Position numbers and translations under genes: made by a program. The notes beneath the pieces were generated by a model. That model saw only the letters and a program-made list of their open reading frames with translations, was not told where the DNA came from and made no database searches. Shown here in pieces: positions 1 to 12,885 of a stretch of 64,000 nt of DNA; within the stretch, counting starts at the first letter, position 1; every line of letters starts with the position of its first letter. The stretch is taken from NCBI RefSeq assembly GCF_002076895.1, contig NZ_CP020465.1, positions 1,364,001 to 1,428,000 on the forward strand, in the 5' to 3' direction. Source of the DNA: Cognaticolwellia beringensis. Lineage in GTDB: Bacteria; Pseudomonadota; Gammaproteobacteria; Enterobacterales; Alteromonadaceae.

Positions 1-493
1 CATCTAATAATATAGCTTTAGGTTGACTTAATAACACCCTTAAAAGTGCCACTCGTGCTTGTTGTCCGCCTGATAAACTGTCGGGATGACGATGATCTAA
101 ACCTGCTAAACCAACTTCAGCGAGGGCGAAGCTAATTTTTGTTGCCCTAGCTTTTTTATCACCTTTTGGCATGGCAAAAGCAATGTTATCAGCAACTGAT
201 AAATGCGGAAACAACAATGCGTCTTGATACAGCAAACCCATATGGCGTTGATAACTTGCTGTGTGGGTAATATTAGCGCCATTTAAATGTACATTACCAT
301 CGGCATTAAATCCTTTAGGTAACATACCCGTTAGCCAGTTCAATAAAGTTGACTTACCACTGCCAGAAGGGCCCATAATGGTTAACACCTCACCACCTTT
401 TATTGTTTCATTAAGTGATAATAGCGGGGCTTTATCTCGTGATATGGTTAAATTTTCTATCTGTAAACTGTTGTTCTCGCCAGTGGGGTTCAT
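1..493 (-). CDS. ynjD: YnjD-like ABC transporter ATPase (partial, runs off left edge)
   Basis: This is the N-terminal 164 residues of an ABC ATPase, read from the ATG at 493-491. It shows Walker A (GPSGSGKS, about residues 42-49), the Q-loop region (LLYQDALLFPHLS), the signature LSGGQ and the start of Walker B (AILLD) at the window edge; the rest lies outside. Its start overlaps the stop of the permease gene in an ATGA junction, so the two are translationally coupled. The neighbours (fused permease, periplasmic binding protein) match E. coli ynjBCD, whose substrate is not firmly known; the family is related to thiamine and metal importers. The N-terminus and coupling are clear; the substrate is not. 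Confidence 0.88.
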   Translation of the reverse strand, partial: MNPTGENNSLQIENLTISRDKAPLLSLNETIKGGEVLTIMGPSGSGKSTLLNWLTGMLPKGFNADGNVHLNGANITHTASYQRHMGLLYQDALLFPHLSVADNIAFAMPKGDKKARATKISFALAEVGLAGLDHRHPDSLSGGQQARVALLRVLLSQPKAILLD

Positions 494-2253
494 AAGGTAA
501 CCTCGGTTTTCATCTGTTGCGCTCTTTGTTTGTTTTGTCGTGTCGATACTAGCCATATCATGGAAAAAGCAATAGCAGGTAATAGCATTTGTATGAGTGC
601 GTATACGGCACTGGTGCGACGACTAGCGCCATTGGCTAAGCTTACCGCTTCAGTAGTGACAGTATTCAATCGACCACCGCCAACAAGTATCGTAGGTAAG
701 TATTGACTAAAGCTAATAGCAAGCCCTAAAGCACTGGCCATTAAAATAGGCATAAGTAGTTGCGGTAAACTCACCTGTAAAAATATCTTTAAAGGTGAGG
801 CGCCTAGGCTTGCTGCAACTTGGGCATACCGAGGATCCAGTTTACGGTAACTAGTTGCTAAAGATAAAAATACGTAGGGTAAAACAAACAATAGATGTGC
901 CAAAGCGACATTTATAAAGGTTGTTTTACTGTGCAGGGCTTCTTGTAACCAAACTAAACCAAATAAAAAAGCAATGGAGGGGATCATCAGCGGTAAATAA
1001 ATAATCAAACTACTGTAATTTGAAAGTTGAGCACCATTTTGTTTTTCAAACTCTAAGGTTAGTAAAGTTAAAATGACCGCAACACTTGTTGACACTAAAC
1101 CGATACTGAGTGAGTTTATGATGGGGGTTTGTACTTGTATCAGTGCAGACTTCCAATGCAGAAGCACCCATTGCTCAGGTAAGGCTAACGGAAACTGCCA
1201 GTAGCCAGCAAACGACCAAAACACCATGCCAAGTAATGCTAGCGCAATAGAGCTGATCAACAAAACGGTAAAAATACTGATGACTTTAGCCCACAAAATA
1301 TCGCCGTACTGGCGTTGACCATTGCTGAGGCTTTTGCAGGTTATAGCCAGTGTTAACTTTTCTAATATCCACCATGTAATGAGAACTGCAACGGTAATCA
1401 GTAGCTGTAATAAGGCTCCTGCAGATGCTTTTATTCGCAAACTTAAATCAACATCATGAAACCAATTCATTATCGCCACGGCTAATGTCGGTGGTGTATT
1501 TGGACCTAGTATTAATGGCATTTCTACACTAGCACTCGCGTAGGCGAGTATGGCTAATATGGGTAAGCGCATTAATGGATATATGTTTGGCAATACCGCT
1601 TTGAAAAAGGCGGTCATTGGGTAATAACCTAAGCTAAGGGCGAGACGATATTGAGCGCGCAACTTAATATTGAGCGCTGGTTGAGCAATAGCACTTAACG
1701 TCATCAGTAATAGAAAGGGCAGTTCTTTTAGCGTTAACCCCATGATAATGCTTATACCGTATGGGTCGTGAGGTAGAAGCCAGTCAATTGGGCTTTGCCA
1801 CCCGGTTATCCATGGTGATAGTAAACGGGCGATCATACCCGACGGCGTAATTAAAAATGCAATGGCAATTGCGGCTGCCGCATGTGGAATAACTAAAATG
1901 GGCCCTAGTAAACGCTGGATGCGCGCTAACCAAGGGCTGTCGAAATATGTTGCGATTAATAATAATGTGATAATAAACGCTAGCAAGCCACTGACAATGC
2001 TGGTGAAAAAGCTCAAACCTATCATCTGCGCTATACCGGGTGTTTGCATTAATTGCTCAAACCCTTGCAAGTTAAACTGGGTTTTATCTAAGGCCGGAAG
2101 CCAGCCAAACGCGGGTAATATTACGCCAAGTAAGCCACCAAGTACTGGCAAAATTAATATGGTCATTAACAGTTTAGGGCTAATGTTAACTATCGTGCTA
2201 AAAAAGCTATCACGCGTTTTAGTTTTAGTTTTAGTGATCAATGAATTGCTCAT
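490..2253 (-). CDS. ynjC: YnjC-like ABC transporter permease (fused double permease)
   Basis: Inner-membrane permease of 587 residues, about twice the length of a single BPD-type permease, with two homologous halves of roughly six helices each. EAA-type loops appear in the first half (around LRAQYRLALSLGYYP) and in the second half (YAQVAASLGASPLK), where the ATPase docks. A cytoplasmic Lys/Thr-rich N-terminus precedes the first helix. This fused layout is typical of YnjC and of the thiamine and Fe3+ permeases ThiP and FbpB. It sits 3 bp after the binding-protein gene and overlaps the ATPase start by 4 bp. The family call is solid; the transported compound is not determined by sequence. Confidence 0.88.
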   Translation of the reverse strand: MSNSLITKTKTKTRDSFFSTIVNISPKLLMTILILPVLGGLLGVILPAFGWLPALDKTQFNLQGFEQLMQTPGIAQMIGLSFFTSIVSGLLAFIITLLLIATYFDSPWLARIQRLLGPILVIPHAAAAIAIAFLITPSGMIARLLSPWITGWQSPIDWLLPHDPYGISIIMGLTLKELPFLLLMTLSAIAQPALNIKLRAQYRLALSLGYYPMTAFFKAVLPNIYPLMRLPILAILAYASASVEMPLILGPNTPPTLAVAIMNWFHDVDLSLRIKASAGALLQLLITVAVLITWWILEKLTLAITCKSLSNGQRQYGDILWAKVISIFTVLLISSIALALLGMVFWSFAGYWQFPLALPEQWVLLHWKSALIQVQTPIINSLSIGLVSTSVAVILTLLTLEFEKQNGAQLSNYSSLIIYLPLMIPSIAFLFGLVWLQEALHSKTTFINVALAHLLFVLPYVFLSLATSYRKLDPRYAQVAASLGASPLKIFLQVSLPQLLMPILMASALGLAISFSQYLPTILVGGGRLNTVTTEAVSLANGASRRTSAVYALIQMLLPAIAFSMIWLVSTRQNKQRAQQMKTEVTL

Positions 2254-2256
2254 AAA

Positions 2257-3777
2257 TTATTGCGCCCCATAGCGTTTCAGCCATTCACGGCTGATGAGTT
2301 TAGACCAGCTAGGGTGAGGTTCACTTAATGCTTTTATTTTACTGCTGATCGGTAATGCACTTGGAGACTGCTTATTTGTACTAAACAATAATTGTTGCGG
2401 TGACGGTAATTGTGAAACATCGATAACGGTACTATCACCCCAAACTTCAGCTTGTTGTTTTTTTGCTTGTGCTTCAACGCTGAGCATAAAATTAGCAACT
2501 ACTTTTGCTGAGTTACTATTCGCCGCATTATAAGGAATAGCAACAAAATGTATATTACTTAAGCTGCCATCTTGCATAACAAAACTTCGGGTGTTTTCGG
2601 GTAAGTTATATCGCGCGACAGACGCTGGAATTTGCGCCGCAGAAAAGGTGAAACCAAGATTTATTTCACCGTCACCCACTAGCCTTTGCAGTGCAGTGCC
2701 ACTGGCAACAAAGTATTGTCCTTGGTGCCATAAGTTAGGGTGTAACTTATCTAAGTAGCGCCATAAAACGGGTAACAACGCAGCTTGGCTTAGTGGTGTT
2801 ACTGCTTGATACAAACCTGATTTTATTTGCTCTGTTTGAAATTGGTTTAATGCGATAAGCGCATATTTAAGAAAACTTAACGATAAGAAATCAGGCGGTT
2901 TGGGGTAAGTAAAACGCCCAGGGTTTTGCTCAGCCCAAGTGAGTAGTTGCTGAACATCTTTAGGCGCATGTTGAATACTCTCTTGATAGCTATGCTGTGC
3001 AAAATTAAATTCATTGCTTTGATGCGTCGGCGTGTAATAAAAAGTCAGCGACGCTTGCCCCCAAGGAGCTTCCATGCCTTGTGTTGGCAGACCGAAATCA
3101 CGGGTCATGGCCTCATTCTCACTAGGGTTAGTCAACGAAAAATTAGGTAATTGCGCAACCCAGCCTTTAGCTAAAAGTTGATATTGAGCCATAGATGCAA
3201 AGTTTTCGCCGTTAATCCAGACTAAATCAACTTGCCCTTGCTGATGGTTCTCTGCCGACTTTTCTGCTAATACACGGCTAACAGCTTCACTGGTGTCGGT
3301 TAATTTTACATGGTGTAAGTCGATATTATGTAATTGTTTTACTCGCTTTGCTAACCACTGAATATAACTATTAATTTGTGGGTCACCGCCCCAAGCATGA
3401 AAGTATACGGAGTGATTTTTACCTGATGCTTCAATGGTATTCCAACGAGTTTTTAAGGTTGTTTTTTGGGTTAATACTTCAGGCGATTTTGCTGCTGATG
3501 TTTCACCAGATTTTTTACCAGATAATTCATCTGATATGGCGGTTTGATCAGTGATTACAGCTGAAGAAAGTTCGGCATAACTTAATGATGATAAGGGTAG
3601 TAGGGCGACTGATATAATGGTTAACTGCCAAAATTTCTCAATAAAGGCTGTTACTTTTGAGGTTGTAGGACGTTGTGCTTTTAAGTCAGATGTTTGCTTA
3701 CTGGATAATGAAATAATAAATTTATTCAGACAAACATAAGTAAAAAGAGTCGTTAAACGACTCTTTTTACTACTCAT
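2257..3777 (-). CDS. ynjB: YnjB-like ABC transporter substrate-binding protein
   Basis: Periplasmic solute-binding protein of the YnjB/COG4134 type (for example the stretch WGGDPQINSYIQWL and the later VDLVWINGENFASM). The start is uncertain. In-frame ATGs lie at 3819, 3804 and 3777, and none has a well-spaced ribosome site. The hydrophobic export segment (around FWQLTIISVALLPLSSLSYA) begins only about 50 residues after the 3777 ATG, which is unusually late, and no ATG, GTG or TTG lies between. A perfect 13-bp hairpin with a T-rich flank (3740-3770) falls in this leader. Mature length from the export site is about 440 residues, somewhat longer than E. coli YnjB. It delivers substrate to the YnjC/YnjD-like genes. 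Confidence 0.8.
   Translation of the reverse strand: MSSKKSRLTTLFTYVCLNKFIISLSSKQTSDLKAQRPTTSKVTAFIEKFWQLTIISVALLPLSSLSYAELSSAVITDQTAISDELSGKKSGETSAAKSPEVLTQKTTLKTRWNTIEASGKNHSVYFHAWGGDPQINSYIQWLAKRVKQLHNIDLHHVKLTDTSEAVSRVLAEKSAENHQQGQVDLVWINGENFASMAQYQLLAKGWVAQLPNFSLTNPSENEAMTRDFGLPTQGMEAPWGQASLTFYYTPTHQSNEFNFAQHSYQESIQHAPKDVQQLLTWAEQNPGRFTYPKPPDFLSLSFLKYALIALNQFQTEQIKSGLYQAVTPLSQAALLPVLWRYLDKLHPNLWHQGQYFVASGTALQRLVGDGEINLGFTFSAAQIPASVARYNLPENTRSFVMQDGSLSNIHFVAIPYNAANSNSAKVVANFMLSVEAQAKKQQAEVWGDSTVIDVSQLPSPQQLLFSTNKQSPSALPISSKIKALSEPHPSWSKLISREWLKRYGAQ
3740..3770 (-). terminator. Terminator-like hairpin between DUF547 gene and ynjB
   Basis: A perfect inverted repeat: 13-bp arms (GTAAAAAGAGTCG and its complement) around a 5-base loop, with the T-tract on the 3' side, on either strand. 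It is just downstream of the DUF547 stop codon at 3791 and inside the extended reading frame of ynjB. It looks like an intrinsic terminator or attenuator that would reduce read-through from the receptor/reductase genes into ynjBCD. Confidence 0.6.
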
Positions 3778-3790
3778 TAGATGCTGAAGC

Positions 3791-4624
3791 TTACCTCGCA
3801 GCATTGAGTGCCCAATCATAATTTAAAAATTTATTATCCATTTTTTCAGACTTTAATAATGCTAGTTGAGCGGGTGTTAAATTTAATGCTTCATGATAAA
3901 GCAATATAAAAGCAGGTAAAGAATTACTGCCACGAAAGCCTAAAGCGAAGTCATCACCATACCATTTAAAAATAGCAGAAAGCTCCATTGAACTGTCGTT
4001 AAAACGGTTACGGCTTGTATCTGTTAAAAAACGCACCGTTTGTTCGTTTAACTGTTGCTCTAATTTTTCTGCACTATAAGCTTCTTCACGCAAAGCAGGG
4101 CAACCAATACTGGCACAATTAACGGCAAAATGAATACGTGGGTCACCATATTTATTATCGCCACGAATTAATTGGTGTTCAATATTATCTAAGCTGCGTG
4201 TTTCGCCGAGTAATGGAATAAATTTTTTACTCCATGGCGAACTAAAAAAGCTACCCAAATCTTTAATTGATGCTAAATCTGGATATGCGGTTAAAATAAA
4301 CTCAACGGTCCAAGCATTATAAGCGTTGATTAAAAAAGCCAATTGCTTAGGTGCTGGCCATTGAGCAAACACGTCTTTATCAACTGAACCAAGTGCAGCT
4401 AAATAAGCTTTTAACTGCGCTCGTTCCATTTTCATGCCCGCGTAATCTACTTGGCTTGAATGACCATTATTTATCGGCTTTACATGCTGAGCTAATAACG
4501 TTTGCCATGGTTGATGCAAGGTTTCTTGCGCCACACTAATGGCGCTATAAACTGTACTTAACACTAACAATAAAGCTAACGGTAAAGATTTAGCCCTTAA
4601 TAGGGCTTTGTTTAAGTTAACCAT
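3791..4624 (-). CDS. DUF547 domain protein, exported
   Basis: The ATG at 4624 is chosen because GAGG lies 9 bases upstream; an ATG at 4645 would start inside the previous gene. The product is 277 residues with a cleavable-looking signal peptide (hydrophobic run LPLALLLVLSTVYSA). The body is DUF547: the conserved block HFAVNCASIGCPALREEAY holds two cysteines and a histidine, and LINAYNAWTV is the other signature. DUF547 has no settled function; a papain-like or transglutaminase-like fold has been suggested. The gene follows the reductase fusion with a small overlap-scale gap and is presumably cotranscribed, suggesting a periplasmic role linked to that enzyme or its transporter. Confidence 0.82.
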   Translation of the reverse strand: MVNLNKALLRAKSLPLALLLVLSTVYSAISVAQETLHQPWQTLLAQHVKPINNGHSSQVDYAGMKMERAQLKAYLAALGSVDKDVFAQWPAPKQLAFLINAYNAWTVEFILTAYPDLASIKDLGSFFSSPWSKKFIPLLGETRSLDNIEHQLIRGDNKYGDPRIHFAVNCASIGCPALREEAYSAEKLEQQLNEQTVRFLTDTSRNRFNDSSMELSAIFKWYGDDFALGFRGSNSLPAFILLYHEALNLTPAQLALLKSEKMDNKFLNYDWALNAAR

Positions 4625-4629
4625 GAGTA

Positions 4630-6807
4630 TTAACCTCTTCTCCACGTATGGAACTTCTCTAACCAGCTTAAAACGGTTTCAGGTGCATGGTTACGTTTCC
4701 ATTCGCCAGCGGCGTATTTATTACCTTCAGCCCATGTTGGGTAACTGTGAATTGTGCCTAATATTTTGTTTAATCCTAAACCATGTTTCATCGCTAAAAC
4801 AAATTCTGCAATTAAATCACCGGCATGTTCAGAAACAATAGTGACGCCGAGTATTTTATCTTTGCCTTTTGGCGTGATCACTTTGATAAAACCGTTAGCA
4901 GCACTGTCAGTAATAGCTCGGTCTAACTCTTCAAAGTCAAAGCGGGTTATTTCGTAGTCAATGCCTTGCTCTATCGCTTCTTGCTCATTAATACCAACAC
5001 GCGCTACTTCTGGGTCAATAAATGTCGCCCATGGGATAACACGATAATCGACTTTAAACTTCTTAAAAGTGCCAAACAATGCATTAACTGCAGCATACCA
5101 ACCCTGATGAGCGGCAACATGAGTAAACTGATAAGGACCAACAATATCGCCCGCCGCAAATATATTAGGGTATAACGTTTCTAAGTAGTCATTAGTTTGA
5201 ATAGTACGATTAGTTTCGATACCTAATTCTTCAAGACCGTAACCTTTCAAGCGGGCAGAGCGGCCAACAGCACACAATAACTCGTCGTATTCGATAGCCA
5301 TTTCTTCTTCTTGCTCTGAACCTTGCTCGTGCTTAAGGTTTTTAACAATGATGAATTTTTTACCATCGCGTTGCTCACAACGTAAAGCTTGATGTGAGGT
5401 CAGGATATTAACACCACTTTTTTGTAAAGACTGACTGGCAAATTCAGAGACTTCCAAGTCTTCTCTGATCATAATGCGCTCAGCCATTTCAATTTGTATG
5501 ACTTGTGAACCTAAACGAGCGAAACTTTGTGCAAGTTCACTGCCTATAGGTCCGCCGCCTAATACGACTAATTTTTTCGGCGCAGTATCGAGTTTGGCAA
5601 ATTCTGTCCATAAAGTATCACTGGTAACGTAACCACTGTCTTCAATACCCGGTAATGGCGGTACAAATGGACGAGCGCCGGTTGCAATAACAATACTGCG
5701 AGCGGTGAGTGTTTGCATGGTGCCATCGTTAAGTTTAATTTCTACCGTCCATGGGTTAATTAACTTTCCGTAGCCTTTAATAACTTCTACACCTAAGTCA
5801 GTGTAGCGTTCAACACTGTCATGCGGGGCAATATCAGCGATAACTTGATGAACACGAGCCATGACTTTCTTGAAGGAAAATTGTGGTGTAGCGTTTTCTA
5901 AACCGTAGTGTTCGCCATGTTTAATTTGATCGACAATTTTTGCACTTTTAATGATCGCTTTACTGGGTACACAGCCATAGTTTAAGCAGTCGCCACCCAT
6001 CTCACCCGCTTCAATTAACGTAACTTTCGCTTTTACTGCTGCTGCAATATAACTCGTTACTAAACCACCAGCACCCGCACCGATAACTAATAAATTACGG
6101 TCAAAACTTTTTGGTTTTTGCCATTTTTTATAAACTTTACGTTGCTTTATTTTATTAACAATTGCTTTGCCAATTAAAGGTAAGAGCCCTAATAAAACAA
6201 AAGAGAAGATAAGCTTAGGCGATAATATACCTGACAAGCTTTCTATGTCAGCTAGCTGTGTGCCGGCGTTAACATAAACTACAGTTCCGGCAAGCATACC
6301 TAGTTGGCTTACCCAATAAAACGTCCAAGCTTTTATGCCAGTAACGCCCATTAATAAATTGACTAAAAAGAACGGAAAAACAGGTACTAAGCGCAATGTA
6401 AATAAATAAAACGCGCCTTCTCTTTGAACACCTTCATCAATAGCTTTTAAGCGTTCAGGAAACTTCTTTTTAATGCTTTCACGTAATAAATAGCGTGAGA
6501 CTAAAAAGGCTAATAGTGCGCCAATGCTTGAGGCAAATGAAACAATAATAAAGCCTTCAACTAAACCAAATAAAGCACCAGCAGCCAAGGTTAAAATGGC
6601 CGCGCCAGGTAACGAAAGTGCAGCGACTAAAACGTACAAGGCAAAGAAACCACCGATGATTAATATTGGTGATTGTTCACGCCACTCGCCAAATTGATCC
6701 ATTGATCCTTTCAGACCTTCTAGCGTAAGTAATTGGTTTAAATCGTAATGAAAAAACAATGCTACTAGCGTAATAGCAATAACTAATAATAAGACTTTCT
6801 TAAACAT
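4630..6807 (-). CDS. TVP38/DedA-like membrane domain fused to FAD-dependent disulfide reductase (MerA/Lpd type)
   Basis: This 725-residue fusion has residues 1-230 as a TVP38/TMEM64-type (SNARE-associated, DedA-like) membrane region of about six hydrophobic segments. Residues 237-725 are a class I pyridine-nucleotide-disulfide oxidoreductase: FAD-binding GAGAGG at 243-248, redox pair Cys274/Cys279 in GGDCLNYGCVPSK, an NAD(P)-binding glycine motif (GGGPIGSE), and the FAD motif with AAGDI. Near the C-terminus the dihydrolipoamide-dehydrogenase signature HxHPTxxE reads HSYPTWAE, so the catalytic His is Tyr, as in mercuric-reductase-like members. It likely reduces a substrate at the cytoplasmic face of the membrane. 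The substrate is unknown, and no MerR or MerT gene is present nearby. Confidence 0.88.
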   Translation of the reverse strand: MFKKVLLLVIAITLVALFFHYDLNQLLTLEGLKGSMDQFGEWREQSPILIIGGFFALYVLVAALSLPGAAILTLAAGALFGLVEGFIIVSFASSIGALLAFLVSRYLLRESIKKKFPERLKAIDEGVQREGAFYLFTLRLVPVFPFFLVNLLMGVTGIKAWTFYWVSQLGMLAGTVVYVNAGTQLADIESLSGILSPKLIFSFVLLGLLPLIGKAIVNKIKQRKVYKKWQKPKSFDRNLLVIGAGAGGLVTSYIAAAVKAKVTLIEAGEMGGDCLNYGCVPSKAIIKSAKIVDQIKHGEHYGLENATPQFSFKKVMARVHQVIADIAPHDSVERYTDLGVEVIKGYGKLINPWTVEIKLNDGTMQTLTARSIVIATGARPFVPPLPGIEDSGYVTSDTLWTEFAKLDTAPKKLVVLGGGPIGSELAQSFARLGSQVIQIEMAERIMIREDLEVSEFASQSLQKSGVNILTSHQALRCEQRDGKKFIIVKNLKHEQGSEQEEEMAIEYDELLCAVGRSARLKGYGLEELGIETNRTIQTNDYLETLYPNIFAAGDIVGPYQFTHVAAHQGWYAAVNALFGTFKKFKVDYRVIPWATFIDPEVARVGINEQEAIEQGIDYEITRFDFEELDRAITDSAANGFIKVITPKGKDKILGVTIVSEHAGDLIAEFVLAMKHGLGLNKILGTIHSYPTWAEGNKYAAGEWKRNHAPETVLSWLEKFHTWRRG

Positions 6808-6818
6808 GAAATGTGTCC

Positions 6819-9173
6819 TTAAAAACTGTGCGTTAAAGTGAGTTTGGCATTGATAGGCAATTCAGGGAAAACTAATGTTGAGCCAAAATATCCCCCTTCA
6901 AACACGGGGCGCCAATTTTTTTGATTAGTGACGTTATTAATATCGAAACGCACTTTAGTGTTTTCGGCTATGGTATAACTGGTATTAAGACCTAAGGTGT
7001 ATTGATCGCGTATGTTCACCGTTGCCAAATAATCTAGCGGGTAACTAGAAGTATATAAAGCGGCAAAACCTGCTTGCCAATATTCGCTTAGATAAATGCC
7101 ACCATTAACACTTAAAGATTGCTCTGGAATACCTTGAACACGTCGAGTAGATGGCGCAAATGCAGTAAAGCTTGGCGCACCAACACTGGACCCTTGAATA
7201 ATATCAGGGCGTGAATTATCAAAGGCATCGGCTATTTGTGATGAGCTTTGACTGCTAGCTGAGTTATCATATCGAGCATCAAGGTAGCTGTAACTAACGT
7301 TAAACCAGTAAGGTGCAGCGTCATAAAAAACTTGCAGTTCAACACCTTTGGTTTTTATACCTGTGTTACTACCGTCGCGATTACGTAAACTACGACGTTG
7401 ATTAAATATTGAACCATCAAGATACCAAGCACTATTGTCTGGGATATATTTAATACCGACTTCATTGAGGGTGTTTTCAGTGGCAAAGTTCTGTTCACTG
7501 ATCAAATTGTCACCGCCTAGTGAATTACCACCGGCCATACTGTTTGATGTTGCTTCGTTGTAGCTTGTTGCCGCATAAATGGTTAAATCAGTATCAAGCT
7601 TATAATTAATACTAGCTTGTCCTGAGTGTAATATTTTATTAATGCTATCTTGCGCTGCTACTTGACCTACAGGTGCAATAGGATCTCTGGCTTCTACGTC
7701 ATAAAAGTCGATACGGTAACCAAAGTTTGTTCTTAAACGTTCGCTCCATTGACTATCTTGTTGAATAGCAAAGCCTGTCTGCCAGCTAGTAGAGTCGGTA
7801 GTATCAGATAATGAAAAATCACCCACGTTGTCATTATTTATATCATATTGTCCACCGGGTGAAACAAACACACCGGGGCTGAGTTCTACAAGTCTAGCTT
7901 GTTGTTCAAGTGTAAGTGGAATGCGTCGATTTTCAATGGGCCCTGTTAAATCGATAGGGTCGTCAGCCTCGGTAGTAAATTGGCTATAACCGCGTACTTT
8001 ATTGTAACGAACATCAAAGGCGAAAATGGTTTGTTGTTGGTTGTTCCAATCATGACTTAGTTCTAGTCTATTTTGTGCCGTATCTGCGGCATCTATAATT
8101 TCCACAAAGCTATTTTGAGCAATTTCATCACGAGTTAAATGCTGATAATAAGTGCTGTTTTTTAGTCGTGTTTGTCCACTTAATTCGCGCGTATATATAC
8201 TGTGAAGTAAAAATGTTTCGGCTTCGTTTGCGTTATCAGGGTCGGTTAATACAGTACTGCGGCTGATTTGAACCTGTCCAGTAGGTGATATGATGGCACC
8301 AGCACCAGGTATAAGGCTGCCATTAGGCTGTACGCCTTGGCCCGTTATATATAAGCCATGATCGATCAGTGCTTGCGTAGGTCGGTTGATACCGGCATTG
8401 TCAGTAAATTCAACTTGGTAAAATTCAACGTTTATATCCCAAGTGCTTTTCTCATCTGGCAGGAAGCTAAATGCGGCATAAAGGCTGTCACTTTCGAAAC
8501 TTGAATGATCGTAAAAGCTGCCATTATCAATATGCTCAGCGCTGATCCTAAAGCCACTTTCACCTTTAACTATAGGAGCCGATATATCAAGTTGTGCACT
8601 GTATTGATCCCAACGACCAGCAGTAAACTTTACTTTTGCTGCACTTTCTTGCGTTGAAGCACGTTTAGATTGTAAATTAACAAAACCGCCGTTACGTTGG
8701 CTACTACCAAATAACACGGGTGGCGCACCTTTTATAACATCAAGCTGCTCAACAGAATTAAAAGAAAGTGGCACACCAAAGCCATTATTACCCGCTTGAC
8801 GACGCATTCCATCTTGAAACAGTTCGCCAAGTTGCCCACGTAACGTTGGTAGGCTTGGTGCACCAAAACCACTTGCTGAATAACTGCTTGGTGAGATAGC
8901 TAAAATATCTTGTAAGTCAGTTATGTTTAATTGTTCCATCATGGCACTAGTAATGGGTGTCATAGAACGTGCAATGTCAGCTAATGCTAAATCATCGCCA
9001 AAGGGACCACTTATTTTAGTGTTTTTAGGTGAAAAACCATGATTAATAATACGTTGACCGGCTACTTCAATAACTTCAATACCTGTTGCTTCAGTTTCTG
9101 CTACTGCTTGAGCATTCGCTACTTGAGCTTGAAAAACGATATGAATGCTAAGAGCGATTAAACTGTATTTCAT
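6819..9173 (-). CDS. TonB-dependent outer-membrane receptor
   Basis: 784 residues: a signal peptide (cut near ANAQA), a plug domain (residues about 60-190, with LPTLRGQLGELFQDGMRRQ and the GAPPVLFGSSQRNGGFVNL block), then a 22-strand barrel ending in the terminal aromatic motif LTLTHSF needed for BAM recognition. The plug and barrel resemble the siderophore/FhuA-like class. The likely TonB-box region is around EVIEVAG. It is the first gene of the run leading to the reductase fusion 11 bp downstream and then to the YnjBCD importer, so it is the plausible outer-membrane gate for the same substrate. I see no Fur-box-like sequence upstream. Confidence 0.9.
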   Translation of the reverse strand: MKYSLIALSIHIVFQAQVANAQAVAETEATGIEVIEVAGQRIINHGFSPKNTKISGPFGDDLALADIARSMTPITSAMMEQLNITDLQDILAISPSSYSASGFGAPSLPTLRGQLGELFQDGMRRQAGNNGFGVPLSFNSVEQLDVIKGAPPVLFGSSQRNGGFVNLQSKRASTQESAAKVKFTAGRWDQYSAQLDISAPIVKGESGFRISAEHIDNGSFYDHSSFESDSLYAAFSFLPDEKSTWDINVEFYQVEFTDNAGINRPTQALIDHGLYITGQGVQPNGSLIPGAGAIISPTGQVQISRSTVLTDPDNANEAETFLLHSIYTRELSGQTRLKNSTYYQHLTRDEIAQNSFVEIIDAADTAQNRLELSHDWNNQQQTIFAFDVRYNKVRGYSQFTTEADDPIDLTGPIENRRIPLTLEQQARLVELSPGVFVSPGGQYDINNDNVGDFSLSDTTDSTSWQTGFAIQQDSQWSERLRTNFGYRIDFYDVEARDPIAPVGQVAAQDSINKILHSGQASINYKLDTDLTIYAATSYNEATSNSMAGGNSLGGDNLISEQNFATENTLNEVGIKYIPDNSAWYLDGSIFNQRRSLRNRDGSNTGIKTKGVELQVFYDAAPYWFNVSYSYLDARYDNSASSQSSSQIADAFDNSRPDIIQGSSVGAPSFTAFAPSTRRVQGIPEQSLSVNGGIYLSEYWQAGFAALYTSSYPLDYLATVNIRDQYTLGLNTSYTIAENTKVRFDINNVTNQKNWRPVFEGGYFGSTLVFPELPINAKLTLTHSF

Positions 9174-9546
9174 TTATTAGTACCTATTTTTTTATTATTA
9201 ATCATGGATTGAATATTACTTATTTAAAATGCTATGAGGGACTAGACCCCTCTTAAAAGTAAAAAATTTCAAAGACTGTAATTTACACTACGTTTATTTT
9301 TAGAATTAGTTCATAAAGCTACTTGTAAAGTCGTTGATCTACTAATTAAAATGTACGTGAACACGCATTATCAGTGTATTAATGAAGTTAAAAGGCGTTT
9401 AAAAATATTGAAATTTTACGTAGAGAGCTTTTAATCGTTTAGATTAGCTAAAATGAAGTTGAGTTAATCTTGTGGCATTTACTGTATTTAAATATAGCAA
9501 AATGTAAGCCAATAACCGTTAGTGTTCGCGATTAATAATTATTGTC
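9174..9546. other. Intergenic region upstream of the TonB receptor
   Basis: About 370 AT-rich bases between the receptor start and the small gene at 9547. A short hairpin (GAGGG, 7-base loop, CCCTC; 9236-9252) lies about 65 bases before the receptor start. I see no TPP or cobalamin riboswitch hallmarks and no Fur-type palindrome. The receptor promoter must lie here but I cannot place it. Confidence 0.4.
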
Positions 9547-9892: not shown

Positions 9893-10933
9893 TTACTTAG
9901 TTACTATTTTTTTCGCACTTGTTGCTATTTTAGCTACAACACGACGGTTTAACTGATTAGCAGTACGAGTTGTCTCTGTTGATAATAACTGAGACTCGCC
10001 GTAGCCTTTTGAAGTTAGGCGACTAGCTTCAATGTTGAATTTATTGATAAGAATGCTTTTCACTGCGTCTGCACGTTTTTGTGAAAGCATTAAGTTATAG
10101 TCAGCAGGACCGGTAGCTGAACTATGTCCTTCAATTTCAACTGATGTCGCTGTATATTCCTTCATGAAATCAGCTAAACGTCTGATATCATCAACTAATG
10201 CTGGTTGAACAATCGAGCTGTTATTAGCGAAAGCTATGTTTAGCTTAATTTCAACGGCATGTTCTGAATATAAAGTACAACCTTTAGAATCTACTTTAAC
10301 TGTTGCTGGTGTATTAGCACAACGGTCAACACCATCTGCAACACCATCGTTGTCACTGTCTAAAACTTTAGCAACTACAGGTTGTACAGCAGGCGTAGGC
10401 TTAGCAATAACAGGAGCTTGCTCAACATCGCCAAATGCATATTTAAGACCAAGCTTTACACCTTGGTCGATAAAACCATAGTCAACATCTTTATAAATAG
10501 CGGCTTCAGTGTAAAAAGATAAACGGTCGCTAACTTGAAAGTTATAACCAGCACCAATATTTACAGCATTGTAGCTTTTAACGTTGTTAAAACGTTTAAC
10601 ACCAGCAAATACATATAAGTCGCTATCTTCTAATTTGTAAATAGCGTCTATACCTGCACGTGTGCCGTAATCTTTGTCATTTCCGTTGATTACATCATAG
10701 CGAGTTTTTGCAAGTTCAATGCGCACATCCCAGTAGTCGTTAATGATTTTCTGTAAATCAATACCGATAGATTTTCCGGCTTCAATTTGGCTCCAATCAG
10801 CTTTTGCATCTTTATTGGTGCTCGACTTTATATAGTCGCCAAACACGCCTAATTCCCATGTTTTATCGATATTTTCAGCAGCTAGTGGTGAACTGATAAG
10901 GGCTGCAAGAAGAGTTATTTTAAATGTTTTCAT
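9893..10933 (-). CDS. OmpA/OprF-family outer-membrane porin
   Basis: 346 residues: signal peptide (cut after SPLAAE region), an 8-strand OmpA-like barrel to about residue 165, a Pro/Val linker, one thrombospondin-3-type calcium repeat (SDNDGVADGVDRCANTP) and a C-terminal OmpA peptidoglycan-binding domain (about 230-340, with EIEGHSSATGPADYNLMLSQ and NRRVVAKI). The TSP3 repeat and layout resemble Pseudomonas OprF more than E. coli OmpA. It anchors the outer membrane to peptidoglycan and may act as a slow porin. It is divergent from the crfX-cmpX-sigX-like genes, matching the genomic association of oprF with sigX in Pseudomonas. Confidence 0.88.
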   Translation of the reverse strand: MKTFKITLLAALISSPLAAENIDKTWELGVFGDYIKSSTNKDAKADWSQIEAGKSIGIDLQKIINDYWDVRIELAKTRYDVINGNDKDYGTRAGIDAIYKLEDSDLYVFAGVKRFNNVKSYNAVNIGAGYNFQVSDRLSFYTEAAIYKDVDYGFIDQGVKLGLKYAFGDVEQAPVIAKPTPAVQPVVAKVLDSDNDGVADGVDRCANTPATVKVDSKGCTLYSEHAVEIKLNIAFANNSSIVQPALVDDIRRLADFMKEYTATSVEIEGHSSATGPADYNLMLSQKRADAVKSILINKFNIEASRLTSKGYGESQLLSTETTRTANQLNRRVVAKIATSAKKIVTK

Positions 10934-11276
10934 TTGGTAATTCCTTTTTAGGTCTAAATAATTTAATAATTTCTATCTTGTATAACGAAGATGAATATAG
11001 AAAGTCACAAATTAATTTTTTTAATTAAATTATGCATCTATATTTTGACGATTATTTGCTTAAAGCGCCACACAATACGGCGCTTATTTTGATAAAGATC
11101 ACTAATAATTAAAATATTTTAAATAATTTGTGACAAACCTTTTCATAACTAGCGTAAAATTCACCACAATACTGATACTGCTAAGTTTTTGTCACTAATA
11201 TAAATAAAATTATTGTGACTTTTTAGATTAAAAATCGTTGTTATTAAAGAGTAGAAAATTATAGCTAGGGGGAACA
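10934..11276. promoter_or_regulatory. Divergent promoter region between OprF-like gene and crfX-cmpX-sigX-like operon
   Basis: 343 AT-rich bases that must carry promoters for both directions. A GC hairpin (AAGCGCC, 9-base loop, GGCGCTT; 11063-11085) stands out. GTGAC/GTCAC half-sites recur near 11140, 11190 and 11215. An ECF-type promoter recognised by the adjacent sigma factor is expected by analogy with Pseudomonas, but I could not place a convincing -35/-10 pair. Confidence 0.4.
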
Positions 11277-11522
11277 ATGAATATTATAGAGCAAAGTTTA
11301 ATAGAGGAACTTGAGCGTGAAGATGAAGTTGCTTTCATTGCATCAGATGAAGAATTATTCAAACGTGCTGAAAACACCGCTAACGTGCAACAAGGTAGTA
11401 AAGATTTAATTTCGCTAGGTATGGCCTCAATTTGGGTGGTATTTGCGGGTTTGTTTATCAATGTTTTAAAGCCAACATTTAAAAATATGGCTGATAATAG
11501 TAGGAAGAATAATGAACACTGA
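11277..11522 (+). CDS. crfX: CrfX-like small membrane protein
   Basis: 81 residues with a strong ribosome site (AGGGGG, six bases before ATG). The N-terminal half is acidic (IEELEREDEVAFIASDEELF), followed by one hydrophobic segment at about residues 46-62 (LGMASIWVVFAGLFINV) and a short basic tail. It overlaps the channel gene by 11 bp. In Pseudomonas aeruginosa a small protein, CrfX, precedes CmpX and SigX in the same order; length and position match, so I assign it by context rather than strong sequence recall. Its topology, with a soluble domain plus one helix, would also suit a small regulator of the sigma factor, which is inference. Confidence 0.62.
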   Translation: MNIIEQSLIEELEREDEVAFIASDEELFKRAENTANVQQGSKDLISLGMASIWVVFAGLFINVLKPTFKNMADNSRKNNEH

Positions 11523-12336
11523 AAATATTACGGATAAAACCTATAACGGACTTCTCGCTATTTGGCATAAAGTGGTTACCTTTATGCCTGACTTAATTGT
11601 TGCGTTACTGTTTTTACTTGCTGGTTGGGTTATTTCAAGTTTAATTAAACGTCTGCTTAATAAATCGTTAATAAAAATAGGCTTTAATACATTCTTAGAT
11701 AAGCTTGGTTTAGACACCTTGCTGAAAAAAATGGACTTAAAAGTTAAAGGCAGCCAAATAGTCGCAAGTATTATTTCGGTTTTCATCTTTTTAATATTTT
11801 TATTAGCAGCGTTAGATATTGTTGGACTTGATATGTTGTCAGGCTTGATTGACACAGTCGTCCTTTTCTTGCCTAAATTACTTGCTGCACTGGCAGTATT
11901 ACTTTGTGGTTTTTTTGTTGCGCAAATTGTTTTTAACGCTGTGAAAATAGCGTCAAAAAATACTGGCGTCGATTATGGCCGATCTGTGGCAGAGGTTTGT
12001 CGTGGCATTATTATCATTATTACGGTTTCGCTTTCTATCACTCAGCTTGATATTGATGTGTGGCTGCTCAATAGTATTATTTCAGTGGTTATTGCTAGTG
12101 TTGGCCTTGCCGCGGCTATTTCTTTAGGCATAGGTACAAAGTCGATGGCACAAGAAATTGTTGCGGGTGTTTACCTCAGAGAAATGTATCAAACGGGTGA
12201 CAACATTGAAGTACAAGAAGTTAAAGGTGCACTTGTTTCAATAGGTAGCGTTGCGACTAAAGTTATAGGTGAAAAAGAAGCAATAATTACCGTACCTAAT
12301 ACCTTTTTGTTAGCGAATAAAGTCACTAAGCAGTAG
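11512..12336 (+). CDS. cmpX: CmpX-like mechanosensitive-type channel protein
   Basis: 274 residues, the same length as I recall for Pseudomonas CmpX. It has about five hydrophobic segments (around residues 20-40, 85-110, 118-140, 160-180, 190-210), including conserved TM-helix repeats (LIVALLFLLAGWVISSLIKRLL and its echo LLAALAVLLCGFFVAQIVF, here listed only as landmarks). A short MscS-like beta region follows (GDNIEVQEVKGALVSIG, then EKEAIITVPNTFLLANKVTKQ). It lacks the long C-terminal domain of classic MscS. It sits between the small membrane protein and the ECF sigma gene (12-bp gap). In Pseudomonas, CmpX affects SigX activity in response to envelope state. Confidence 0.8.
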   Translation: MNTENITDKTYNGLLAIWHKVVTFMPDLIVALLFLLAGWVISSLIKRLLNKSLIKIGFNTFLDKLGLDTLLKKMDLKVKGSQIVASIISVFIFLIFLLAALDIVGLDMLSGLIDTVVLFLPKLLAALAVLLCGFFVAQIVFNAVKIASKNTGVDYGRSVAEVCRGIIIIITVSLSITQLDIDVWLLNSIISVVIASVGLAAAISLGIGTKSMAQEIVAGVYLREMYQTGDNIEVQEVKGALVSIGSVATKVIGEKEAIITVPNTFLLANKVTKQ

Positions 12337-12348
12337 GCTACTTTTCAC

Positions 12349-12885
12349 TTGAATTCGTTTAGCGAACGCCAACTCGTTGCCTTAGTGCAAGAGGGCTTAC
12401 CTTATGATACGCGCTTTTTTCAGCAGCTGATCACCCCATACTTGCCTAAATTAAAAGGCTATTGTGTCAAAGTGCTTGGTAACCAGTCTGACGCTGAAGA
12501 GGCGGTGCAAGAAACTATCATTAAAGCCCTGACAAATTTGCAAAGCTTTAAGTGGGTGGTATCATTTAAGTCTTGGTTATTTAAAATAGCACACCATGAA
12601 TGCATTAATAAAATTAGGGAGCGTCGTTGGGATATAATGCGATACGATGATGATTACCTTGATACCCTTGAAGCTAAATTACCTGAAGAAGAGGATATAG
12701 CTATGTTGATTTCAACAATGCTTGAGAGCTTATCTTTTGATGATCGTAATATCATGCTGTTGCGCTACCGTACAGGATTAGATTTTCAGGAAATTGCAGA
12801 TATTTGTGAAATGAAACTTTCAGCAGTAAAAATGAGGCACAAAAGGGTACTTGAATTTTTGGCTTGTCAAATAGACCCAAAATAA
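12349..12885 (+). CDS. sigX: ECF sigma factor, SigX-like
   Basis: 178 residues starting at TTG (12349); no ATG is available before the conserved core, and the gene is 12 bp behind cmpX so coupling is likely. Region 2 covers about residues 20-95 (core-binding DAEEAVQETIIKALTNL, then FKSWLFKIAHHECINKIR for the -10 element). Region 4 covers about 120-175 (LLRYRTGLDFQEIADICEMK, helix-turn-helix for -35). No conventional anti-sigma with a zinc motif is adjacent. Order and neighbours equal the P. aeruginosa crfX-cmpX-sigX locus, where SigX controls envelope and oprF expression. Confidence 0.8.
   Translation: MNSFSERQLVALVQEGLPYDTRFFQQLITPYLPKLKGYCVKVLGNQSDAEEAVQETIIKALTNLQSFKWVVSFKSWLFKIAHHECINKIRERRWDIMRYDDDYLDTLEAKLPEEEDIAMLISTMLESLSFDDRNIMLLRYRTGLDFQEIADICEMKLSAVKMRHKRVLEFLACQIDPK

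Follow-up and report, generated by a model that had tools for sequence, protein, structure and literature searches.

What does an operon do that combines a TonB-dependent receptor, a membrane-anchored flavin reductase, a YnjBCD-type importer and two lipid-enzyme-like genes? Such an operon lies at one edge of a 64,000-nucleotide stretch of the Cognaticolwellia beringensis genome (4.66 Mb; contig NZ_CP020465.1), hereafter the window (G000:C1:1364001-1428000). It consists of eight minus-strand genes, two of which lie beyond the window edge, 3' of the ATPase gene. YnjBCD and YnjF are orphans even in Escherichia coli, the best-studied bacterium; here they accompany a membrane-anchored reductase across several separate lineages and, in marine bacteria, lie under a stress-type promoter motif. 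We tentatively favor the view that this is a stress-induced envelope operon that imports a polar compound and builds it, or a derivative, into a modified membrane phospholipid. Its promoter type seems to be one that envelope-stress genes also have, and the operon does not look like a simple system for nutrients or mercury. The features are as follows (all on the minus strand; positions are those of the window unless given otherwise).

9243..9271, minus: candidate extracytoplasmic function (ECF)-type promoter motif, TGAAATTT-N15-GGTCTA, from the upstream-region alignment, 69 bp 5' of the receptor ATG
6819..9173, minus: TonB-dependent receptor, 784 aa, plug and barrel (PF07715, PF00593)
4630..6807, minus: VTT (DedA-type) domain fused to a pyridine nucleotide-disulfide oxidoreductase, 725 aa (PF09335, PF07992, PF02852)
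3791..4645, minus: DUF547 protein with a hydrophobic, signal-like N-terminal segment (PF04784)
2257..3819, minus: YnjB-family solute-binding protein (NF008633, 456 bits, cut-off 203)
490..2253, minus: YnjC-like permease (PF00528; 37% identity to E. coli YnjC over 203 aa)
1..493, minus: YnjD-like ATP-binding cassette (ABC) ATPase, start at 493, cut at the window start (44% identity to E. coli YnjD over 207 aa)
G000:C1:1363077-1363754, minus, outside the window: cytidine diphosphate (CDP)-alcohol phosphatidyltransferase, 88 bp after the ATPase
G000:C1:1362288-1363076, minus, outside the window: fatty-acid-hydroxylase-family protein, 0 bp after the transferase

Measured from the longest open reading frame (ORF) starts, the junctions in operon order are +11, -16, -29, +3, an ATGA overlap, 88 and 0 bp. 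An earlier note, made from the sequence of the window alone, had described six same-strand genes with gaps of 0-20 bp. All six are present where it placed them, but two junctions are overlaps (-16 and -29) and the run really comprises eight genes, with two more on the same strand downstream. The ATGA coupling that it reported at the last junction in its view, between the YnjC-like and YnjD-like genes, is seen in the sequence.

Conservation of the gene order

The order receptor–VTT/reductase–DUF547–YnjB–YnjC–YnjD–YnjF–hydroxylase is kept in Colwellia, Pseudocolwellia, Pseudoalteromonas and Psychrosphaera; one Psychrosphaera locus keeps it without DUF547. Because the order recurs in relatives, it is not due to chance. 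The earlier note had made its proposal of one functional unit depend on such conservation, and on this point it stands. The closest named loci by reductase (97% identical) are from Colwellia and Cognaticolwellia. Our named set comprises 45 loci (L038-L082; L083, at 29% identity and not a fusion, was dropped). Found beside the reductase in these were YnjB, YnjC and transferase together in 34, DUF547 in 39, the hydroxylase in 33 and the receptor in 24. Across 147 family genomes, the full-length fusion (identity >= 55%) occurs in 38 and YnjB (E value of 1e-15 or better) also in 38, with both in 37 and either in 39 (Fisher p 1.8e-32, a value that ignores shared ancestry). The two genes lie within 3 kb of each other in 36 of the 37 genomes with both. 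The exceptions are one genome with the reductase only (G010) and one with YnjB only (G047). In G102, the receptor and reductase are apart from YnjBCD and the transferase, yet both halves are still in the genome.

The outer-membrane receptor, ABC importer and inner-membrane redox enzyme that the earlier note recognized are as the sequence has them. Its proposed function was a nutrient route, in which the TonB receptor and YnjBCD bring in a metal chelate or cofactor for reduction at the inner membrane; the lipid-like genes would then be passengers. Receptor and importer do share one operon, and YnjB belongs to a solute-binding family (38% identity to E. coli YnjB over 398 aa) and has adjacent YnjC and YnjD, the make-up of a YnjBCD importer. 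The structure model of YnjB was too poor to use (predicted local distance difference test score, pLDDT, of 50.7). The receptor is weakly similar to ferric siderophore receptors: among solved structures, only the ferripyoverdine and ferripyochelin receptors are related to it by sequence (44 and 37 bits), and it scores 102.3 bits against a siderophore-receptor cut-off of 223.5 (TIGR01783). However, no receptor stands beside the reductase in any of the nine named Psychromonas loci, which tells against both a nutrient route and the completeness proposed for it. DUF547 is also missing in places (L053, L064 and seven of the family loci), and two lipid-enzyme-like genes lay beyond the earlier reader's view; the route is thus not complete as described. 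Moreover, the transferase is a near-constant partner, accompanying the reductase in all 34 named loci with YnjB and YnjC, in 7 of 10 such wider loci and in 6 of 6 such plasmid loci. Together with the promoter motif described below, these observations leave a nutrient route not very likely. In Psychromonas (L046, L058-L062, L069, L075, L077), the unit directly follows a gene that reads as nrdA, for the ribonucleotide reductase alpha subunit; L075 retains only the reductase and DUF547 after this nrdA-like gene.

In addition, 100 wider loci were chosen, mostly full-length and high-scoring, from 183 rows of class- and phylum-wide searches. These include YnjB and YnjC in 10 (seven of them with the transferase), the transferase in 12 and DUF547 in 18. 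The density of partner genes falls from 0.266 per kb within 1.5 kb of the reductase to 0.000 at 7.5-9 kb. In three loci (L087, L218, L220), the CDP-alcohol transferase is preceded not by YnjBCD but by a NupC-type nucleoside transporter. In a quick tree built from 150 reductases, the label YnjB plus YnjC (48 rows, three mixed ones excluded) needs nine gains or losses, at least seven by well-supported branches, gains and losses being indistinguishable there. Left out of this tree were 5-kb duplicates (L009-L037, L093-L122), L001 and L008 (the window was used instead), L080, L082, L193, rows covering < 85%, and L143, which has an internal stop. That YnjB and YnjC pair with the reductase on separate branches favors a functional link between them.

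The reductase and the lipid-side genes

The reductase is a fusion with a clear VTT domain (PF09335, 93.7 bits, cut-off 33.9). Its CxxxxC motif (residues 274 and 279) is kept in 149 of 150 homologues, His687 in 148 and Glu694 in all 150. In MerA, by contrast, a C-terminal vicinal cysteine pair is present and the catalytic histidine of disulfide reductases has been lost; both MerA chains in our alignments lack this histidine, whereas the lipoamide dehydrogenases have it. No C-terminal cysteine pair was found in any of the 150 homologues, read to the stop codon. By its residues (CxxxxC and the His–Glu pair), the enzyme is thus predicted to be of the class I disulfide-reductase type, like lipoamide dehydrogenase and glutathione reductase. 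The glutamate after the second Rossmann strand presumably indicates reduced nicotinamide adenine dinucleotide (NADH) as cofactor, by a rule that we take to hold here.

The earlier note had called this protein MerA-like, and the best-scoring solved relative by sequence is indeed a chain named mercuric reductase; the MerA model TIGR02053 matches with 373 bits, under its cut-off of 454.45. In a functional sense, the label does not survive. A mercury role is unlikely because the disulfide-reductase cysteines and the His–Glu pair are kept and the C-terminal cysteine pair is absent, and we consider mercury detoxification by a membrane-anchored MerA very improbable as an explanation of the locus.

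Could the reductase and DUF547 alone account for the locus? The DUF547 protein carries an invariant NCAS-x-GCPALR motif (alignment of 10), and no fold match was found for it. Reductase and DUF547 genes are also adjacent without YnjBCD in 13 rows of the tree set. If the two formed a redox pair that repairs the envelope, the importer could bring in a low-molecular thiol or disulfide, and the conserved cysteines of both proteins, like the promoter motif held in common with MsrA and DoxX-like genes, would suit such thiol and oxidant defense. However, the VTT domain has no conserved cysteine, in the alignment of 150 homologues, to carry electrons across the membrane; DUF547 is not constant; and transferase and hydroxylase are left unexplained. 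We regard defense of this kind alone as unlikely.

Over 202 aa, the transferase shows 58% identity to YnjF of E. coli (E 5e-71). The CDP-alcohol motif is kept in the operon's enzyme and in four relatives (a first, stricter pattern matched only the window's copy), and the His boxes of the hydroxylase are present. The best family models are archaetidylinositol phosphate synthase for the transferase (66 of 180 bits) and OlsE for the hydroxylase (95 of 475 bits). These matches are possible leads and not assignments, and because the scores are far under the cut-offs, any lipid product named is a guess.

The promoter motif and the proposed mechanism

Alignment of upstream regions gave the motif TGAAANTT-N15-GGTCTW. 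A relaxed pattern (TGAAANWW-N14-16-GGTCTW) was sought from 300 bp before to 60 bp into mechanically called ORFs. It stands before the receptor at 24 of 26 loci and before 17 of 22 DoxX-like genes, divergent or nearby, and before none of 634 other ORFs of the same loci, a test that is partly circular, and to that extent counts against our reading, in that the motif was derived from these promoters. A fairer test is provided by 20 more distant family loci, where the motif with at most one mismatch precedes the receptor in 4 of 16, the DoxX-like gene in 4 of 6 and other ORFs in 3 of 288. In the C. beringensis genome, the strict pattern has four sites: before the operon, before a DoxX-like gene elsewhere, before a cysteine-rich EGKCG-repeat protein and inside a gene. 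Six extra sites of the relaxed pattern include one before MsrA with a signal-like N-terminus, the rest being inside genes or before unrelated genes. Among seven relatives, five have a strict site at this operon and three have one at EGKCG-repeat proteins. Over whole genomes the signal is weak, but its targets recur. Both the motif before the receptor and its company of DoxX-like, EGKCG-repeat and MsrA genes are new here.

We infer that the motif is an ECF promoter and that the genes are co-regulated. The company points to a probable role in envelope redox or metal stress, and so weighs against a plain nutrient route. EGKCG peptides have been linked to copper (PMC12452194, PMC13097082). One EGKCG-repeat protein with the shared promoter motif (L245, 1588-2046) has a signal-like N-terminus and no Pfam match, and its genome is without an MNIO enzyme. 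The C. beringensis genes do not make up a bufferin or captophorin cluster: the MNIO enzyme is absent from the genome, and of such a cluster only the EGKCG-repeat protein has the shared promoter motif. Of five weak ECF matches, two show a looser motif, and there it lies only within the gene or on the opposite strand. Also in the window (9893-12885) is an OmpA-like gene (minus strand) beside a mechanosensitive-channel gene and an ECF sigma factor gene; the sigma factor passes the SigX model (212.6 bits, cut-off 194), and the motif is absent at this gene. The trio adjoins the operon in two named Colwellia loci as well (L039 and L040), in an arrangement that we take to resemble cmpX-sigX-oprF of Pseudomonas. 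In another locus (L258), an ECF sigma gene is followed by a protein with HxxxCxxC, presumably like a ChrR-type zinc anti-sigma factor.

We propose the following mechanism. An ECF-type sigma factor would drive the operon as part of a small redox- and metal-stress regulon. The receptor and YnjBCD would import one compound, which the YnjF-like enzyme may join, as an alcohol, to CDP-diacylglycerol; the OlsE-like enzyme may then hydroxylate the resulting lipid. The flavin reductase, presumably held at the inner membrane by a domain of a lipid-flippase family, would use NADH to reduce an oxidized group, disulfide-like or metalloid, on a membrane-borne substrate. For an importer of unknown substrate, this is a testable proposal that involves lipids and metal or oxidant stress, and not nutrients alone.

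Several further observations weigh against this mechanism. In the more distant loci, 12 of 16 receptor promoters depart from the motif at two or more positions, and loci without the receptor mostly lack it (1 of 15 has it). Enrichment over the reversed control is weak: 4 strict sites against 1 and 10 relaxed sites against 6 in the C. beringensis genome, and 22 strict sites against 16 in the seven relatives; several sites are inside genes. The cognate sigma factor was not found, nor was NrsF in the C. beringensis genome, where the MNIO enzyme (PF05114), which would mature an EGKCG peptide, had no matches. Transferase and hydroxylase score well below the cut-offs of the named families. No tested partner family is found near the reductase in 41 of the 100 wider loci. 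Finally, activation of the E. coli counterpart by FNR, without oxygen, does not suggest oxidant defense.

Arsenosugar-annotated neighbors, plasmids and known systems

The wider loci also raise the possibility of organometalloid handling, in which organo-arsenic (arsenosugar-like) or related compounds are imported or processed, reduced and joined to lipid. Among the 100 wider loci, ArsS accompanies the reductase in 23, a distant ArsS-like radical S-adenosylmethionine (SAM) gene in 5 and any arsenosugar-annotated family in 35; three loci have both kinds of partner, YnjB/YnjC and arsenosugar-annotated genes. One family (L141, L156, L162) combines YnjB, YnjC and the reductase with both arsenosugar-annotated glycosyltransferase types. 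Plasmids carry two arrangements, one of reductase, YnjBCD and transferase and the other an Acinetobacter arsS cluster. On an Acinetobacter portensis plasmid, the order is arsS, reductase, DUF547, glycosyltransferases and methyltransferase, with a sterol desaturase nearby that is 52% identical to the operon hydroxylase. Three plasmid carriers were isolated from macroalgae. However, ArsS (TIGR04167) exceeds its cut-off in 0 of 98 family genomes, that of C. beringensis included, and any such family occurs in only 4 of the 45 named loci; the arsenosugar names, moreover, are annotations only. In E. coli, YnjBCD and YnjF occur along with DedA proteins that are separate, and the surrounding 16 kb has no gene annotated as any of these families. 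Organometalloid handling by the operon is quite unlikely in our estimation. A bolder form of the idea, to which we give little credence, is that an unrecognized pathway is made up of the reductase fusion, the YnjF transferase and YnjBCD (or NupC); it would import algal arsenosugar-like compounds, reduce them at the membrane and attach them to phospholipid. If this were true, YnjBCD and YnjF of E. coli would be an arsenic-free version of the pathway, and their head group a related one.

A conjugative plasmid of Citrobacter (L089) carries a cassette of reductase, YnjBCD and transferase next to a bufferin-type operon. Related reductases, matched by the reductase alone, are present on plasmids of Klebsiella, Salmonella, Providencia and E. 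coli, and several of the listed sources of the enterobacterial plasmid matches are milk, veal or cattle. Also recurring beside the reductase (L162, L089, L068, L169 and others), and present in 15 of the 100 wider loci, is a TIGR03169-type flavin adenine dinucleotide (FAD) oxidoreductase, a type named for its SelD fusion; it scores over the cut-off in L162 and below it in L089.

Returning to the envelope-lipid proposal that we prefer, its parts can be compared with known systems. Where a choline importer is paired with phosphatidylcholine synthase, an ABC importer supplies the alcohol that a CDP-alcohol transferase joins to lipid. The likeness is an importer feeding a transferase; the difference is that phosphatidylcholine synthase models give the operon transferase no more than 23 bits. 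The Citrobacter cassette likewise has the reductase fusion, YnjB-C-D and the CDP-alcohol transferase in one run. It differs in adding a SelD-associated-type FAD oxidoreductase and its bufferin-type neighbor, and no receptor or DUF547 is present in the stretch read. The occurrence of the same parts on a conjugative plasmid suggests that their function may be useful enough to move.

Two published regulons resemble the company of the motif. Neisseria sigma E controls a small regulon with a DoxX-like protein and MsrA/MsrB (-35 GTMAGBWTT, -10 CGTCTAAH) that did not respond to the oxidants tried; Caulobacter sigma F controls DUF2282-DUF692-DUF2063 operons and DoxX under chromium and cadmium, with msrA homologues unchanged in that study (PMC2893595, PMC3511200). 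Neither is a full match; the -35 element and the spacing differ, and the C. beringensis genome is without NrsF and the MNIO enzyme. For the reductase, exactly the same fusion has been described, that of a COG0398 DedA protein with a pyridine nucleotide-disulfide oxidoreductase, as the commonest COG0398 fusion, and COG0398 DedA proteins have been proposed as putative phospholipid flippases (PMC10127716). Assignment of the window protein to COG0398 rests on that paper, whose passages on the fusion give no gene context or function.

The closest comparison is with E. coli, where ydjXYZ-ynjABCD is one operon directly activated by FNR, its products only predicted (PMC3688515). There, ynjA and ynjB were weakly changed by BaeR (PMC2731931), and a genetic-interaction screen placed ynjABCDEFI together with Suf genes (PMC3930520). 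The order in K-12 is ydjX-ydjY-ydjZ-ynjA-ynjB-ynjC-ynjD-ynjE, with ynjF on the opposite strand. Thus, VTT/DedA proteins, the order YnjB-YnjC-YnjD and a YnjF transferase occur in one place in both organisms. E. coli differs in its separate DedA proteins without a reductase domain, in the additional YdjY, YnjA and YnjE (in 214 loci, tblastn at 1e-10 found neither YdjY nor YnjE within 9 kb of the reductase), in having no TonB receptor, DUF547 or hydroxylase in this stretch, and in FNR in place of the ECF-type motif. Judged by sequence and gene content, the operon is a variant of the orphan E. coli ydjXYZ–ynjABCD(EF) locus in which the DedA part has been fused to a reductase, and receptor, DUF547 and hydroxylase have been added.

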